The notes below the pieces were generated by a model, which was not told where the DNA came from, did not search any database, and saw only the letters and a list, made by a program, of their open reading frames with translations. Below, piece by piece: positions 3,656 through 36,490 of a stretch of 64,000 bases of DNA (the stretch's first letter is position 1; each line of letters begins with the position of its first letter). A program made the position numbers and the translations under genes. Source of the DNA: Methylobacterium sp. C25 (GTDB taxonomy: Bacteria > Pseudomonadota > Alphaproteobacteria > Rhizobiales > Beijerinckiaceae); NCBI RefSeq assembly GCF_021352225.1, contig NZ_JAAUVI010000012.1, positions 62,001 to 126,000 of the forward strand, read 5' to 3'.

Positions 3656-4252
3656 ATGGCGACGAAACCCCGAAAATCCCATCTCGTTCGCCAGGACGTG
3701 CCCCGCTTTCAGCTGGGAATCGAGGCGCGCTGGCGGGCCTAGTATCGTCAGGCGCAGTACGAGCGGGCGCTGATCGGCATCCAGCCCGATCTGTTTGGCG
3801 CACTCGCCGTCGAGGTGTTCCGCCCCTCGCTGAGGGTGACGGCACCCGAGACCTGGACTCCGGGATACGAGGTGGAGATGTTCCACGCTCTGCCGCCGGG
3901 AGAACAGGCGCTGCGGCTCGCGGCCGATCCGCAGACGCCGTTCGCCCGCACGACGCGCGGCAGACCAACCGAGGCCGAGAAGGCGGCCCTGATCGCGAGC
4001 GCCGCGAACTGGCTGCGCGTCGGACAGCCGGTGCGGATCGCCGGCGCGCCGCTGACCCTCGATGGCGACGCCGGACAGCGCATCGGCCGCACCGGCGTCG
4101 TCTGGCGCCTGTGCAGCCCGGTCTTCGCCGATCAGGTCGATGTCAATCTCGACCTGATCGCCGCCGAGCGCTCGGAAAAGGTCGTGTTCGTCGAGCTGTG
4201 CGACGTCGAGCCCATCGAGGTGGCCGCCTTGCACGCCACACGACCACGGTAG
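3656..4252 (+). pseudogene. Hypothetical protein gene interrupted by an in-frame TAG
   Basis: An ATG at 3656 opens a frame that meets TAG at codon 29 (3740-3742), then continues in the same frame without a stop to 4252. Residues on both sides read as one protein (a basic N-terminus, then Y-R-Q-A-Q-Y-E-R-A-L-I-G-I-Q-P-D-L-F). The downstream part could start again at GTG 3815, giving about 145 residues. I recognise no domain. The C-terminal 60 residues are strand-rich and acidic. The gene lies upstream of ardC, in a stretch with another broken gene, so a real nonsense mutation is more likely than a sequencing error. Confidence 0.5.
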
Positions 4253-20723: not shown

Positions 20724-21956
20724 GTGTTTGAGGCGATGAACCAGCGTGCGGTCGTAGCATCACCAGCAGAGCGGGCTATCGAGGCGCCGGGCGCTTTGAT
20801 CGGCCAAGATGCCGCGACTCTGCGTAGCCGTCTGCAGTCGATCAGTTCGGGTCTTTTCCCGCCGGACGCAGCGAAGACGCTTCGGCGGTTCGCCGCAAGC
20901 GAAGCCGCCAAAATTCTCGGGGTTACGGTCCAGCGCCTCAGCCAGCTCGAAGGCGACGAGGCCGTTCCCGATCCCGAGATCTCGAACACGGGGCGCCGCT
21001 CCTACAGTCTCGATGACATACACGCGATCCGGCTGCACCTCGACAAGGTGACGAAAACCGACCGCCGTTACGATCCCTGCCGCGAGGATGGTGAGCACCT
21101 ACAGGTCATCTCGGTCGTCAACTTCAAAGGTGGGTCCGGCAAAACCACCACGGCGGCACACCTCGCTCAGTCGCTGGCACTGCGCGGATACCGGGTGCTC
21201 GCGATCGATCTCGACCCGCAGGCCAGTCTGTCCGCCCTGCTGGGGGTGCAGCCCGAGATCGACGTCGCGCCGAACCAGACGCTCTACGCTGCCATCCGGT
21301 ATGACAACGAGCGCCGGGCACTGAGCGAGGTCATCCGCAAGACCTACTTCGCCGGTCTCGATCTTATCCCGGCCAACCTCGAACTGCAGGACTTCGAGTT
21401 CGACACGCCGCGGGCGTTGACCAGCCGCAAGCCGGGCGAGCCGCTGTTTTTCGAAAGGATGGCGCGGGCGCTCGACGAGGTCGAGGCCGATTACGACGTC
21501 GTGGTCGTCGATTGCCCGCCGCAGCTCGGCTACCTGACGCTGTCCGCGCTCAGCGCTGCGACGGCGCTGCTGGTCACCGTGCACCCGCAGATGCTGGACG
21601 TCGCCTCAATGAGCCAGTTCCTCGCGATGGTCGAAGACCTGCTGTCCGTTATTTCGGAGCAGGGCGCCACGCTGAGCTACGACTGGATCAGCTACCTCAT
21701 CACGCGTTACGAGCCGCAGGACGGCCCGCAGACGCAGGTCGTCGGCATGCTCCGCGATCTGTTCGGCGATCGCGTCCTGACGAGCCCGATGCTGAAATCG
21801 TCGGCCGTGTCCGATGCCGGGCTTTCCAAGCAGACCCTCTACGAAATGGGCCGCACCGGGGTCACCCGCTCGACCTATGATCGCGCACTGGAGGCGCTCG
21901 ACCTGGTCAACGGGGAGATTGAAACCAAGATGCAGCGCGGGTGGGGCCGGGCATGA
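20724..21956 (+). CDS. repA: Plasmid partitioning protein RepA (ParA family ATPase)
   Basis: 410 residues if the GTG at 20724 is used; ATG 20736 is the alternative (GAGG lies only two bases before it). An N-terminal helix-turn-helix-like region (A-S-E-A-A-K-I-L-G-V-T-V-Q-R-L-S, about 55-75) binds the repABC operator. The Walker-type ATPase begins with F-K-G-G-S-G-K-T-T-T near 133, then D-L-D-P-Q-A-S-L-S, and V-V-V-D-C-P-P-Q near 258. RepA with RepB partitions the plasmid and, in known systems, represses repABC transcription. ATGA overlap with repB shows one operon. Confidence 0.95.
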   Translation: MFEAMNQRAVVASPAERAIEAPGALIGQDAATLRSRLQSISSGLFPPDAAKTLRRFAASEAAKILGVTVQRLSQLEGDEAVPDPEISNTGRRSYSLDDIHAIRLHLDKVTKTDRRYDPCREDGEHLQVISVVNFKGGSGKTTTAAHLAQSLALRGYRVLAIDLDPQASLSALLGVQPEIDVAPNQTLYAAIRYDNERRALSEVIRKTYFAGLDLIPANLELQDFEFDTPRALTSRKPGEPLFFERMARALDEVEADYDVVVVDCPPQLGYLTLSALSAATALLVTVHPQMLDVASMSQFLAMVEDLLSVISEQGATLSYDWISYLITRYEPQDGPQTQVVGMLRDLFGDRVLTSPMLKSSAVSDAGLSKQTLYEMGRTGVTRSTYDRALEALDLVNGEIETKMQRGWGRA

Positions 21957-23008
21957 GCAGAAAGGCGAACCTCAGCGCCCTGCTCGCCGGCAAGACTGCG
22001 CCCGCTTCCGCTCCGCAAACGGAGGCTGCCGCAGAGAACTTGGCAGCTGCCAAGACAGCTCCTGCCCCGGCCGAAAAGGGCGACTTGGCAGCTGCCAAGA
22101 AAGCGCCGCCGGACTGGTCCGCGCGTCCGCGGAGTGGTGCGATCCGCGGCATGGAAGCGACCCTGCGCACGCTCGCGGTTGGCCCAACGGGAGCCGAGGA
22201 CGGCACGTCGGTCGTCGAACTCGATCCGACCCTTCTCGATCCGTCCATGGTGGTTGATCGCGTCGCCGACCCCGGCGATCCGTCGTTCGCAGCACTCGTC
22301 GACAGCATGCGTGACGGTGGCCAGCAGGTCCCGATTCTGGTGCGCAGACATCCGCAGGCCGCCGGCCGGTACCAGATCGCCTATGGGCACCGCCGCTGGC
22401 GCGCCGCGGCCGAACTCGGCTGGCCGGTCCGAGCGGTCATCAGGCCCCTGACGGATGACGAGCTCGTCGTCGCGCAAGGCAAGGAGAACCTCGAACGGCG
22501 CGATCTCAGCTACATCGAGAGGGCGCTGTTCGCCGCTCGCATGGAAGCCCAAGGGTTCAAGCGCGAGACGATCTGGTCGGCGATGGGTACCGTCGAATCC
22601 GAGATCAGCCGGTACGTCGCCATCGTCGCGAACGTGCCTGAGCATCTTATCGCGGCGATCGGACCGGCCCCCAAGATCGGGCGCCCGCGCTGGGTCGCAT
22701 TCAGCGATCGGCTCAAGGCGGTCGGCGCCGGCCTCGCCGAAGCCGCCGTGGCCGAGCTTGGCTTCGCGGAGAAGGCGACGGACGACCGATTCGCTGCCGT
22801 GTTCGCAGCGCTGAGCGGGAAGGCGGCGGTGAAGGCACCCAAGCCGCAGGTCTGGAAGGATCCCCAAGGCCGCAAGGTCGCGCGCGTCGAGCGCAGCGGC
22901 GGCCGCTTCATTCTGTCGATCGACGAGACGATGGAGCCCGATCTCGGCTCCGCGCTTCTCGACCGGCTCCCCGAGATCCTCGCCGCCCTCAAGGCCGGCA
23001 AGGCTTAA
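21953..23008 (+). CDS. repB: Plasmid partitioning protein RepB (ParB family)
   Basis: 351 residues starting at ATG 21953 inside the repA stop. The N-terminus S-R-K-A-N-L-S-A-L-L-A-G-K is the RepB type that contacts RepA. Two L-A-A-A-K segments at ~30 and ~45 are encoded by 16-bp palindromes (separate entries). The ParB core has Q-Q-V-P-I-L-V-R, Y-G-H-R-R-W-R-A-A and Q-G-K-E-N-L-E-R-R-D-L-S, followed by a helix-turn-helix. It binds parS sites for segregation. The short Ala/Pro-rich insertion carrying the palindromes looks like an in-frame addition. Confidence 0.95.
   Translation: MSRKANLSALLAGKTAPASAPQTEAAAENLAAAKTAPAPAEKGDLAAAKKAPPDWSARPRSGAIRGMEATLRTLAVGPTGAEDGTSVVELDPTLLDPSMVVDRVADPGDPSFAALVDSMRDGGQQVPILVRRHPQAAGRYQIAYGHRRWRAAAELGWPVRAVIRPLTDDELVVAQGKENLERRDLSYIERALFAARMEAQGFKRETIWSAMGTVESEISRYVAIVANVPEHLIAAIGPAPKIGRPRWVAFSDRLKAVGAGLAEAAVAELGFAEKATDDRFAAVFAALSGKAAVKAPKPQVWKDPQGRKVARVERSGGRFILSIDETMEPDLGSALLDRLPEILAALKAGKA
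22039..22054. promoter_or_regulatory. parS-like palindrome, copy 1, inside repB
   Basis: CTTGGCAGCTGCCAAG is a perfect 16-bp palindrome. It fits the repABC parS consensus GTT-N2-C-N-GC-N-G-N2-AAC at every internal fixed position, differing only in the outermost base of each arm. It encodes L-A-A-A-K in RepB. Confidence 0.7.
22084..22099. promoter_or_regulatory. parS-like palindrome, copy 2, inside repB
   Basis: A second identical copy of CTTGGCAGCTGCCAAG, centred 45 bp after the first (about four helical turns). I found no third copy in the window. The pair in the coding sequence may be the centromere of this replicon. Confidence 0.7.
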
Positions 23009-23052
23009 CCCCGCCCGTCGCCCGAACCGAAAGGAGACCGACCCCCCGGAAT

Positions 23053-23108
23053 AAGAAAAGGCCCCCGAACCGCGTCCGGAAGGCCCTCTCTGTCGTCTGA
23101 GCAACCAC
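23053..23108 (-). ncRNA. Antisense counter-transcribed RNA (ctRNA/incA) of repABC
   Basis: Located between repB and repC on the opposite strand, where RepABC plasmids encode a ~55-nt antisense RNA that limits RepC synthesis and sets incompatibility. The 3' half forms an intrinsic terminator: stem arms at 23074-23085 and 23060-23070 (11 pairs, one bulge, loop GCG), followed by TTTTCTT reading leftwards. The exact 5' end, placed near 23108, is inferred from the promoter. Confidence 0.75.
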
Positions 23109-23138: not shown

Positions 23139-23198
23139 GCGATTTGACGCCGACCCGTTTCGGCGAACGCCCCATCTTTGCCCGGCCTCGGCCACGCC

Positions 23199-24473
23199 AT
23201 GATCGATCACATCACGACGCCCTTCGGGCGGCGATCGCTGACGGCTGCGCAGATTCAGGCGCAGGCGAATGCTGCCGCATGCCCGCCCGAGACCACCACG
23301 GACAAATGGGCCGTGGTCCGCCACGTCTCGACCGCCCGCTGCGAACTGGGCCTGGCGGACCGCGCCATCGCGATCCTGTCGGCTCTGGTCAGCTTCTATC
23401 CGGAGACGACGCTACAGGCCGGAGAGGGCGCTCAGCTGGTCGTGTTCCCGTCGAACGCCCAGATCCGGCTTCGGGCGCATGGCATCGCCGAAACGACCCT
23501 GCGGTATCATCTCGGGGCGCTTGTCGAGGCCGGCATCCTCATCCGCCGCGATAGCCCGAACGGGAAGCGTTACGCCCGGAAAACGCAGGGGGGCGAGATC
23601 GCGGACGCCTTCGGCTTCGACCTGACGCCGCTGGTCGCCCGCGCGGCCGAGTTCGCGGCGATTGCGGACCGGATCGCTGCAGCGGAACGCGCCGAACGCC
23701 TCGCCAAGGAGCGTGTCAGCCTGATGCGGCGTGATCTCCGCAAGCTGATCGCCTGGGCAGCCGAGGCCGGCGCGCCTGGCCCATGGGACGACCTGTCGGT
23801 ACAGCTCGATGCGCTGATCGACGGCTTCCCCCGCCGGCCGTCGGGCGAGGCCCTGGCGGCCATGGACGCCGCACTCGGCGCCTTGTTGATCGAAACCCAC
23901 AAGCATCTGGATGTTGGTGCAGAATCCACGATTCACGTTGGCAATGCCAGCGAAACGCGACGGCACCATCAGAATTCAAAACCAGACCCCTCTAGAATCG
24001 GAAAAGCATCCGAGGGGAGCCCAGAAGAACTCGCCGCGCCACAGGCAGGGCCGGGCAGGGCGGGATCGACGTACCCGCTCCCCATGGTGTTGGAGGCTTG
24101 CCCCGACATCGTCGATTACGCCCGGGGTGGCGTCAGGACCTGGGGCGACCTGGTCGATGCCGCCGATCTGGTTCGCGCCATGCTCGGGATAAGCCCCACC
24201 GCATGGCAGGAGGCCCGGGACGTCATGGGGGCAGAGACGGCAGCGGTGACGGTTGCGGCAATCCTGCAGCGAACCGAGCATATTCGAAGCCCCGGCGGCT
24301 ATCTGCGGTCGCTGGTCGAGCGAAAGCGGAAAGAGTTGTTCAGCCTCGGCCCTGTGCTGCAGGCCCTGTTGCGAGCCCGGGCACCAGCCGGAATGCATGC
24401 CGGCAGGGAGAAGTTCAGTGCTCCAAGAGCGTTGGGCGCTTCTAGCGTGGTCCTGCGGGGAGGTGGCGGGTAG
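23199..24473 (+). CDS. repC: Plasmid replication initiator RepC
   Basis: 424 residues from ATG 23199, chosen because the family N-terminus reads H-I-T-T-P-F-G-R-R-x-L-T; a TTG at 23178 is less likely. The N-terminal winged-helix region (about 60-130) includes F-P-S-N-A-Q-I-R-L-R-A-H-G-I and T-L-R-Y-H-L-G-A-L-V-E-A-G-I. The middle is coiled (A-E-R-A-E-R-L-A-K-E-R) and the C-terminal domain has W-Q-E-A-R-D-V-M-G and the S-P-G-G-Y-L-R-S-L box. RepC binds the origin, normally within its own gene. There is no strong ribosome-binding site, consistent with control by the ctRNA and leader folding. Confidence 0.95.
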   Translation: MIDHITTPFGRRSLTAAQIQAQANAAACPPETTTDKWAVVRHVSTARCELGLADRAIAILSALVSFYPETTLQAGEGAQLVVFPSNAQIRLRAHGIAETTLRYHLGALVEAGILIRRDSPNGKRYARKTQGGEIADAFGFDLTPLVARAAEFAAIADRIAAAERAERLAKERVSLMRRDLRKLIAWAAEAGAPGPWDDLSVQLDALIDGFPRRPSGEALAAMDAALGALLIETHKHLDVGAESTIHVGNASETRRHHQNSKPDPSRIGKASEGSPEELAAPQAGPGRAGSTYPLPMVLEACPDIVDYARGGVRTWGDLVDAADLVRAMLGISPTAWQEARDVMGAETAAVTVAAILQRTEHIRSPGGYLRSLVERKRKELFSLGPVLQALLRARAPAGMHAGREKFSAPRALGASSVVLRGGGG

Positions 24474-25320: not shown

Positions 25321-25443
25321 CCTGCGATTTTTACCAGCCTGTCTCGCGTGCGCAGCCGCCGATAGATTCGCTTCGAGCCGCCGACGATCGTGAGTCATCG
25401 CGAGCGTCGACTACTGGAACGACGACGCAAGCCGGACGATGCC

Positions 25444-26196
25444 ATGAAAGTGCTTGTAGTCAACAATCAGAAGGGCGGGGTCGGCAAAAGCACGATCGCC
25501 GTTCACCTCGCTTGGTATTTCGCAGAGCTTGGCCAGCGGGTTCTGTTCGTGGACCTCGACCCCCAGCGCAACGGCACCTCGACCCTCGATGCCCATACCG
25601 GAGCGCTGCCGGCCTCCGCACTGTTCCTCGATACGGTGCAGATCGAGCCACTCTCGGAACCGAGCATTCGCGTCGTCCCGGGTGATCCGAAGCTGCAGGG
25701 CATCAACGACGTCGAGGCCAAGGTCATCAATCGGTACAAAGCGAATCTGATCGCGGCCGCCAACGGCTTCGACGTAGCGGTGATCGATACCCCGCCAACC
25801 TTCAGCGTGCGCAACCTCGCGGCCCTCATCGGCGCCCACTACGTTCTCGCCCCGATCGACCTCGACGAATACGCGATCGACGGTATCGAAGCGCTCCTCA
25901 AGAACGTCACTGGCGTAAGACAGCGCTTCAATCCCGAACTCATCTTCCTCGGATTAATGCCGAACCGACTGCAGGCGACCTCGCCGCGCCAGCGCGCGAA
26001 TCTCGAAACACTCGTGCGCAACGTCGGCCCCCGCTACTTGTTCGACGGCGTCATCCTGCAACGCTCGGCCTTCGGCGAAGCCCTGTCCGAGAAGAAGCCT
26101 GTCTGGGCCCTGACCAAGACCTCGGCACGGGAAGCCGGCCGCGAGATCCGAGCGGTGTTCGCGAAGGTGGCGGCCCGGATGGAGATCGCGGCATGA
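25444..26196 (+). CDS. parA: ParA-family ATPase (second partition system)
   Basis: 250 residues; ATG 25444 is preferred because the protein then begins [17 protein letters not shown], with the deviant Walker A at 10-17 as in short (type Ib-like) ParAs. The other motifs are V-D-L-D-P-Q and V-I-D-T-P-P-T-F. It lacks the N-terminal operator-binding domain of RepA. ParA ATPases bind nucleoid DNA and move ParB-bound plasmid copies. ATGA overlap with the next gene indicates a two-gene operon. Confidence 0.9.
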
Positions 26197-27200
26197 GCTA
26201 CGCCCGGAAGGTCGAGGGCCTGTCGAACCTGTTCGAGGGCCTCGACGACGTCGCGGGCGCCGTCGCCGCGACCGGCACACCTCTCGAAATCGCGCTCGAC
26301 GCCATTGAGGAAGACCCCAACCAACCCCGCATCCGCTTCTCGGAACTCGAACTCGCTGAACTCGCGGCCTCGATCGTCGAGCGCGGCGTCCGACAGGCCA
26401 TCACCGTCACGCCGAGAGGGGAGGGGGGTCGTCACCGCATCCTGTACGGTGCCCGCCGGTTCCGGGCCGCGCAACGCGCGGGCCTCTCGACGATTCCGGC
26501 CGTCATTCGAGCATCATCGCCCGACGACGCTTACGATCAGATGATCGAGAACATCCAGCGGGACGATTTGACCTCGGCGGAGATCGCGGCGTTCGTGTCG
26601 CGCCGCATGGCGCTCGGCGAGAAGCAGGTCGAGATCGGGCGTCGCCTGGGCAAGGACCGCTCTTTCGTCGCCATGCATGCGGCCGTGGCTCAGATGCCGG
26701 ACGCACTCCGGGCCATGCTCGAGACCTCGCCCATCCGCGGCGTGTACGAACTCTATCAAGGTTGGCGCAGCCACCCCGAACCGGTCCTCGCCTTCTGTCG
26801 ATCGCGGGACCAGTTCACGCGCGCCGAGGCGAATGCCTTCGTCGAGAGCCTGAAAGATACCTCAGCGGCTGATCCGGTGAGCGCTGCCTCATCGGGCGCT
26901 GCGCGACCGTTTCCTTCGCCGATCGACCTTCGCGCCGAGCATTCACCGGCGCATCCTCGTACAATTGGCGCGAAACGTGGTCTCGATCGCCCTGGCGCTC
27001 TTGCTTCGACCCCGAAGGCGCCCGGTGCGGAAGCCACAGTCTTCGTCCGCGTCGACCAGCGCGAGGGACGGCTCCTGCTCGACCGTCAGGCCGATCTGGG
27101 TGCCGACCATGCCCGTGTCCGCTATGACGATGGAGCGATTGCCGAGGTCGCCGTGAACGACCTTCGCCTCGTGGCGGTGCGCGATCGGCGGTCCTCGTGA
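26193..27200 (+). CDS. parB: ParB-family protein (KorB-like), partner of second ParA
   Basis: 335 residues. The N-terminal domain shows [15 protein letters not shown] and E-N-I-Q-R-D-D-L, the ParB boxes. A helix-turn-helix follows ([21 protein letters not shown], about 140-165). The last ~60 residues resemble an SH3-like KorB C-terminal domain ([13 protein letters not shown]). It should bind a centromere; the dyads at 25303 and 27213 flanking the operon are candidates. Coexistence with RepAB suggests plasmid cointegration or a dual role as regulator. Confidence 0.9.
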
Positions 27201-35506: not shown

Positions 35507-36490
35507 ATGACTGACGTCCGCACCAGCCTCCGCGCCCTCCTCGCCGGAGCTGCCTTGCTCCTCACCCAGAACCAACCTGGATTCGCCGCCGGCTTCGACG
35601 GCGCAATCAAGAACAACGCGCTCGCCCTGAACGCCGCCGGCACGGTCGCCGCGGTGTCGAACAGCGAGGAGAGCGCCGTCATCGTCTACGACGTCGCCAA
35701 GGGCACGGTGCTGCGCCGCCTCGACGGCTTCGTCACGCCGCGCAACATCGTGTTCGCGCCGGACGGCGCCCGCTTCTACGTCTCCGACAGCGGCACGGGC
35801 CGGATCACGGTCTACGAGACCGGCACCGGCAAAGAAGCCGGCGTTCTTGCCGCGGGCCCCGGTGCGTTCGGCACGGTGCTCTCGGCCGACGGGACAAAGC
35901 TCTACGTCAACAACGAGGCCGCGAGCACGCTGACCGTGTTCGACACCAAGACCATGCTCGCAGACGCCGTGATCCCCGGCTTCGCTCAGCCGCGCCAGGG
36001 CGTGAAGCTGTCGCCGGACGGCAAGACCGTGTTCGTGACGAACTTCCTCGGCGACAAGATCACGTTGGTCGACACCGCCACCAACAAGATCACCGGCGAG
36101 ATCGTCGGGTTCGAAAAGCTGCGCGCCATCTCGATCACCAAGGACGGCAAGACGCTGTTTGCCGCCAACAGCGGCCGCAACACCATCGGCGTGGTCGATG
36201 TCGCCGCCCGCAAGGTCACCTCTGAAGTCGCGGTGGGCAAGGACCCCTACGGGGCCGCGCTGACCCCGGACGGGCGCTTCGTCTATTCGGGCAACCTCAA
36301 GGACAACTCCTTGTCGGTGATCGACACCGGCAGCCTCAAGGTCGTCGCCACGGTGACCGGGCTGAACGAGCCGCGCCAGGCGATCGCGTTCTCGGCCGAC
36401 AACGCCCACGCGTACGTCCTCAACCGCGACCTCAGCGTGGCCGTGGTCGACCGCGCGAAGAACGCGGTGGTTTCGACGATGAAGCCGTGA
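35507..36490 (+). CDS. Periplasmic YVTN-type beta-propeller protein 1
   Basis: 327 residues from ATG 35507 with an N-terminal signal peptide (L-R-A-L-L-A-G-A-A-L-L-L, cleaved near G-F-A-A). It consists of about seven ~40-residue repeats of the YVTN/surface-antigen type, each with S-P-D-G-K-T-V-F-V-T-N or similar and a strand ending in V-I-D-T. Such propellers bind proteins, metals or cofactors, and several sit beside periplasmic oxidases. It lies between the two sulfite-oxidising enzymes. No catalytic residue is evident. Confidence 0.8.
   Translation: MTDVRTSLRALLAGAALLLTQNQPGFAAGFDGAIKNNALALNAAGTVAAVSNSEESAVIVYDVAKGTVLRRLDGFVTPRNIVFAPDGARFYVSDSGTGRITVYETGTGKEAGVLAAGPGAFGTVLSADGTKLYVNNEAASTLTVFDTKTMLADAVIPGFAQPRQGVKLSPDGKTVFVTNFLGDKITLVDTATNKITGEIVGFEKLRAISITKDGKTLFAANSGRNTIGVVDVAARKVTSEVAVGKDPYGAALTPDGRFVYSGNLKDNSLSVIDTGSLKVVATVTGLNEPRQAIAFSADNAHAYVLNRDLSVAVVDRAKNAVVSTMKP

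Follow-up and report, generated by a model that had tools for sequence, protein, structure and literature searches.

Paired palindromes within repB as the putative parS of a repABC plasmid, and a possible residue-base rule for its recognition

Several repABC plasmids often share one cell, and how RepA and RepB discriminate their own site was still described as open in a 2018 review (PMC6090056). This question is raised by a locus at which two palindromes close to the repABC centromere consensus lie within the coding sequence of RepB. The window, that is, the whole stretch of 64,000 nucleotides that was analysed, holds a complete repABC operon; the contig measures 128 kb and the genome 5.19 Mb. 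On the forward strand repA, repB and repC follow one another in this order, each scoring above its NCBIfam cut-off. The ParA-type partition ATPase is encoded by repA (20724-21956; TIGR03453, 609.6 bits, cut-off 348.45), the 3' end of which overlaps the start of repB (21953-23008; TIGR03454, 310.5 bits, cut-off 201.5; Pfam RepB and ParB_N), encoding a ParB-type centromere-binding protein of 351 amino acids. The replication initiator gene repC follows at 23199-24473 (NF040974, 456 bits, cut-off 150), its start being the ATG chosen at 23199 in a mechanical open reading frame that begins at 23178. The gap between repB and repC contains a possible ctRNA, a RepE-like antisense RNA on the reverse strand (23049-23089), with a weak match to Rfam RF00489 (24.1 bits, E 0.07, gathering score 50). 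As expected of this family, RepB combines a ParB core with a helix-turn-helix, and its best Foldseek hits are KorB, Noc and ParB. Directly after repABC, positions 25390-27200 carry a second partition-type pair, a ParA-like gene followed by a ParB-like gene with KorB and KorB_C domains, which gave no match by tblastn at E 1e-20 in the loci fetched by then; it is flanked by the palindrome-like sequences TTGCCCGGACAA (25306) and TTGCCCGGGCAA (27217), which alone in the window match TTGYCCGGRCAA.

The palindromes are two identical copies of CTTGGCAGCTGCCAAG, at 22039-22054 (RepB codons 29-34) and 22084-22099 (codons 44-49), neither of which has a strand. Both are perfect over 16 bp, their starts are 45 bp apart, and they translate as N/D-L-A-A-A-K in the N-terminal part of RepB, where the earlier note had read L-A-A-A-K. 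Its further statement that they equal the repABC parS consensus except at the terminal base of each arm also holds: against GTTNNCNGCNGNNAAC, the consensus of Cevallos et al. as quoted in PMC9040568, CTTGGCAGCTGCCAAG agrees at eight of the ten fixed positions and differs at bases 1 and 16 only, with C and G where the consensus has G and C. A 16-bp palindrome at repABC genes is what a repABC parS looks like, and CTTGGCAGCTGCCAAG nonetheless falls outside the strict consensus class. A search of the whole genome (34 contigs) returned no exact copy of the 16-mer beyond the two in this operon; allowing one mismatch and a free centre adds three near copies, located on other contigs, where the reversed control pattern gives two. 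With up to three mismatches, two places are found in the window where 0.32 are expected, a count reached by 2 of 100 shuffles. A scan of the window for the GTT consensus with at most one mismatch gave five matches against 2.09 expected, and 10 of 100 shuffles reached five. Its sole exact consensus match, at 36388, is not palindromic and was rejected as parS; the window contains no exact palindromic match to the consensus and hence no better parS cluster, nor do the near copies in the genome amount to one.

How much these two palindromes say by themselves was gauged by redrawing RepB codons 25-52 synonymously with repABC codon usage, which produced at least two 14-bp palindromes in 1469 of 200000 draws. 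The stretch is thus mildly palindrome-prone, and because it slightly favours palindromes the window taken alone provides only moderate evidence. The case that the sites exceed chance is carried instead by their conservation in relatives. The repB of M. haplocladii has the same arrangement, and in its comparison with the window none of the 32 palindrome bases differs against 10 of the 29 spacer bases (Fisher 0.0002); set against all other aligned repB bases the palindromes give p 0.016, and four-fold sites alone give no significant difference (0/6 versus 66/191, p 0.18). Among 199 family genomes the 16-mer is present in three, including the window's own, with two copies in each. In one of the other two (G130) the pair stands at repB and is arranged as in the window; in the other (G026), which has a distant repB, the 3' part of the gene contains one copy and the second comes just beyond its stop codon. 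Further relatives carry palindromes of like kind in the same linker with different arm sequences, and across them the arms vary together with the RepB recognition helix. The same-linker palindromes, the pair in the distant repB and this joint variation of arm and helix support the earlier proposal of parS-like sites, and indicate that the two palindromes very probably serve this repABC plasmid as its parS centromere.

The place of the sites in the gene was surveyed in 88 loci (survey 1), comprising the best 80 of 365 relatives from a contig scan, six plasmid loci, the distant locus just mentioned and the window. Palindromes with perfect 6-bp inner arms and any arm sequence occur in 58, 16, 12 and 11 of the 88 loci in successive 250-nt windows of repB. 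Within the first 160 nt, 65 sites whose arms are of the TT or TGT type occur in 48 of the 88 loci, all in codon phase 2 and reading L/F/V-x-x-x-N/K/T, and the 43 sites found in the N-terminal linker in a separate hold-out (40 of 135 loci) all have the same phase, a constancy that could be explained by shared descent of the site alone. The counts of survey 1 omit sites with one inner-arm mismatch, of which eight loci have one in the linker. The arms are GTTTGCA (27), GTTGGGA (10), TGTAGCA (7), GTTAGAA (6), CTTGGCA (4) and others, and the centre dinucleotides of the 65 sites are GC (42), GG (10), GA (5), CC (4), AC (3) and TC (1). Since the arms persist although the central residue may be A, P, G, D, T or S, and since the first three codons of a site are mostly ones that are rare in the rest of repB (GCA 7%, TTG 6%, TTA 1%), conservation appears to act on the DNA rather than on the protein; the last codon, AAC or AAG, is a common one. 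Two perfect-arm copies are present in 17 loci, and in each of these both copies have the same inner arms, which argues that the sites evolve as a pair.

Placement of parS within repB, which the earlier note had called unusual, is a recurrent arrangement, present in 48/88 and 40/135 loci here and already published for Rhizobiales (PMC9040568, PMC4492784). Both copies in the window fall within RepB codons 12-61 (21986-22135), probably a disordered linker; in the AlphaFold2 model nearly all of residues 12-61 have pLDDT below 50, and this low confidence across most of the stretch suggests that the linker can accommodate such inserts. The median length before D102 is 80 residues in RepBs with no site, 85 with one and 96 with two (n 39, 31 and 17). 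The Ala/Pro insertion that the earlier note had proposed is therefore partly borne out, RepBs with two sites having the longer stretch (0 versus 2 sites, p 1.6e-6; 0 versus 1, p 0.075). On pCMU01 (L006), the annotated repB start at 4109 lies about 200 bp inside a longer frame (chosen start 3905) that holds the palindrome, so that the database RepB is without most of the linker. Seven plasmid loci (L263, L264, L266-L269 and L271) have one parS-like palindrome within the 3' part of repB and another right after the stop codon; in these named plasmids of the L010 type, the 3' part of repB is a second in-gene location of parS-like sequence.

Known systems share several of these features. The consensus repABC parS is likewise a 16-bp palindrome with a GC centre and TT/AA arms at the repABC operon (PMC9040568), and differs from the window sites in having G and C rather than C and G at bases 1 and 16. 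According to the same source, Rhizobiales have parS at the 5' end of repB, and in pRleTA1b of Rhizobium leguminosarum it is within the repB coding sequence, with sites that were tested for incompatibility, as cited in PMC4492784. A centromere at or inside the repB frame is thus common to them and to the window, which departs from them in that its two copies are identical, in frame and spaced by 45 bp, that no exact copy occurs outside repB, and that its Ala/Pro linker is longer (the pRleTA1b site being compared by its description). Compared by palindrome alone, the parS of pSmeLPU88b, CCTGTCAGCTGACAGG, also leaves the consensus with C at base 1; its cloned fragment was incompatible with the replicon and drove it out, and its authors consider it a working parS (PMC10194956). 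Unlike the window sites, it has C also at base 2 and is located downstream of repC1. Identical, closely spaced pairs are reported for Rhodobacteraceae, 11-42 bp apart, where one base change divides two compatibility groups; those palindromes, in contrast to the window's, lie downstream of repC (PMC5613091). In-repB parS, paired palindromes, compatibility differences of one base and C as the first base of a working parS have all been published. The literature searched did not contain the unbroken 16-mer CTTGGCAGCTGCCAAG.

What, then, accounts for the C at base 1? The RepB helix-turn-helix spans residues 204-227 (22562-22633), according to predicted helices at 204-211 and 215-227 and a profile alignment with Caulobacter ParB. 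Codon 215 (GAA, 22595-22597) encodes Glu, which in the predicted model is the first residue of the recognition helix; it aligns with the R of G-K-S-R in Caulobacter ParB and would be the reader of parS base 1. In the numbering of PMC7383237 this R is R173, which hydrogen-bonds guanine 1 of parS, and the Q173 of Noc contacts adenine 1. The RepB data resemble this ParB-parS/Noc-NBS switch, in which helix residue 173 determines base 1, R going with G and Q with A, and differ from it in pairing K/R with G and D/E with C, by association only. Among the 87 RepBs of survey 1 that were aligned (L078, with its N-terminus missing, was omitted), the position of E215 is K or R in 78. A parS was called in 73 loci, 14 of the 87 being without a call: K/R goes with G in 59 and with T in eight, E/D with C in three, A with C in two and P with A in one, so that where base 1 is A or C the aligned residue is never K or R. 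The eight K/R loci with T (L006-L008, L048, L050, L053, L059 and L060) form one Methylobacterium RepB clade that keeps R with T at base 1 and is an exception to the pattern; its sites, at the corresponding position in repB, have TGTAGCA or TGTGACA arms and GG in the centre. The C at base 1 together with E215 looks like a specificity variant, in which parS would start with C because the residue that opens the recognition helix is acidic rather than K or R. An acidic residue would read C by hydrogen-bonding the amino group of cytosine. The terminal mismatch that the earlier note had recorded is real; it turned out to be the most informative feature of the sites and not a mere exception.

In the hold-out the prediction was fixed beforehand, the K/R class with TGT being allowed as an exception. 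It comprised 135 of the 138 RepB places listed, the places of G000, G130 and L010 being left out, from a hit list obtained with the D-type RepB of L010, of the window's family, which is not a random draw. The parS calls were made by a script blind to the residue. Where sites had TT at bases 2-3, their most frequent end base was counted as base 1, under a tie rule set after the site list had been seen. Among the called loci, K/R goes with G in 69/69 and the other residues go with a base other than G in 7/8; 58 of the 135 loci (37 of 106 with K/R and 21 of 29 without) received no call. Removal of RepBs at least 90% identical to survey 1 (128 of 135 kept) leaves 63/63 and 7/8 (Fisher 6e-9), and thinning leaves 59/59 and 7/8. 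The locus scored against the rule (L257, Ser) has mixed site ends, and the three called D/E loci have C, one of them (L132) with T at one of four ends. Outside the blind count, sites were found afterwards at three D loci: a CTTGTCA site at L129, which had stood as a gap since its helix was misaligned, and one-mismatch CTT sites in the 3' part of repB at L126 and L127. A relaxed look at the uncalled loci, with much noise, gave end bases G 79, T 20, C 6 and A 3 for K/R and C 17, T 10, G 8 and A 7 for the rest. For 13 hold-out loci with D or A in LLSRML or LTRML helices, a recurrence search found no trustworthy shared palindrome and the relaxed look only scattered single sites. RepBs with D-D-(T/S)-LLSRML, and D at the key position, gave no recognisable parS within about 2.5 kb at 11 loci (L208, L209, L213, L227, L233, L237, L241, L246, L248, L252 and L260).

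For the L010 RepB, against which 2434 plasmid records matched, 11 named plasmids were taken from the 25 matches listed; the key position is D and base 1 is C in 11/11, with CCTGACA or CCTGTCA arms in four and CTTGTCA in the seven that hold a copy within the 3' part of repB and another just past it. The 11 are mutually related and count as little more than one event. The D-type RepB of L261 has CCTGTCAGCTGACAGG, the parS palindrome of pSmeLPU88b, twice nearby. The number of independent events was addressed with a tree (INDEPENDENCE) of 123 thinned RepBs from which the helix columns were excluded, on which the residue class changes seven times and the base class nine times. The window RepB belongs to a 25-row group made up mostly of K/GTT and R/TGT RepBs, with support 94 (below the star at 95), apart from the D/E-CTT clade of L010, L128, L131 and L132 (support 99); on the best tree the combination of acid and C therefore has at least two origins. 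The tree offers just three supported independent pairs (on average 2.1 agree, 0 oppose and 0.9 show no difference), too few for significance. The balance of this evidence leans towards a rule for base 1 in which K/R reads G, D/E reads C and other residues read A, T or C, the acid-C pairing having at least two origins on the best tree and recombination being able to move the key. Neither this rule nor its link to in-gene sites was found stated in the literature searched, and both may be in print elsewhere.

Other roles for the palindromes have to be weighed against a centromere read by RepB. The most serious is that they act mainly as a RepB operator or roadblock tuning repB-repC transcription, with partition as a side role. 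They do lie between the operon start and repC, and parallels exist: the pTiR10 repD sequence, which holds two parS, reduces expression of repB and repC (PMC6090056), transcription of that operon rises about fourfold on parS removal and full repression in p42d involves RepB with parS (both as cited in PMC4492784). In R. leguminosarum TA1, however, PMC4492784 describes strong repression for which parS is not mandatory and RepA with RepB is crucial, and since the genome holds no other exact parS copy, the sites in the window would have to supply partition too. A mainly regulatory role is clearly the less probable reading.

A much slighter chance attaches to an mRNA hairpin, in which one palindrome would base-pair with the other and govern how the repB-repC message is translated or degraded. 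For the RNA 22020-22120 the predicted fold, in which the copies are paired, has -47 kcal/mol (z -2.33), a value matched by 7 of 200 shuffles, but the palindromes of relatives also lie upstream of repA or downstream of repC, or are single, base 1 follows a residue of the DNA-reading helix of RepB, and 21900-22200 has no Rfam family match at E 1. Just as improbable, if not slightly more so, is that the repeated L-A-A-A-K peptide is what counts and that the palindromes follow from its codons. Codon choice can yield at least two palindromes, as it did in the 1469 of 200000 synonymous redraws; against this, the centre residue varies among the six amino acids listed above while the arms are kept, mostly in rare codons, other clades hold such palindromes elsewhere, coding or not, and the stretch is predicted to be disordered. 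The reading that joins all parts, namely that the palindromes are in-repB parS sites, bound by RepB and of the C class because E215 is acidic, is considered highly probable on these comparisons.

Under this in-repB centromere reading, the site sits within the repB frame, in the part encoding the flexible linker between the N-terminal helix of RepB and the ParB core. As in the rest of the family, RepB dimers would bind each palindrome through the helix-turn-helix and then load, and RepA would move the RepB complexes apart, so that each daughter cell receives a copy. The comparisons themselves show the sequence, position, conservation and copy number of the sites and, across related plasmids, the residue-base association; for this plasmid we infer binding by RepB, partition, the atomic contact and incompatibility by analogy. 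The plasmid would belong to a specificity class with a parS that starts with C, E215 being acidic and not K or R. Because reader and site may share one gene, a single recombination could move the whole compatibility key.

The odd end base, taken together with the changed residue of RepB, suggests a simple rule linking each protein to the centromere that it reads. If the rule is true, RepBs could be matched from sequence to the parS they read and plasmid incompatibility could thereby be predicted in part, scans for the GTT consensus will miss whole centromere classes, and the prediction can be put to experiment with one residue and one base. On the same condition, repB would carry its own centromere, reader and site being united in one gene.
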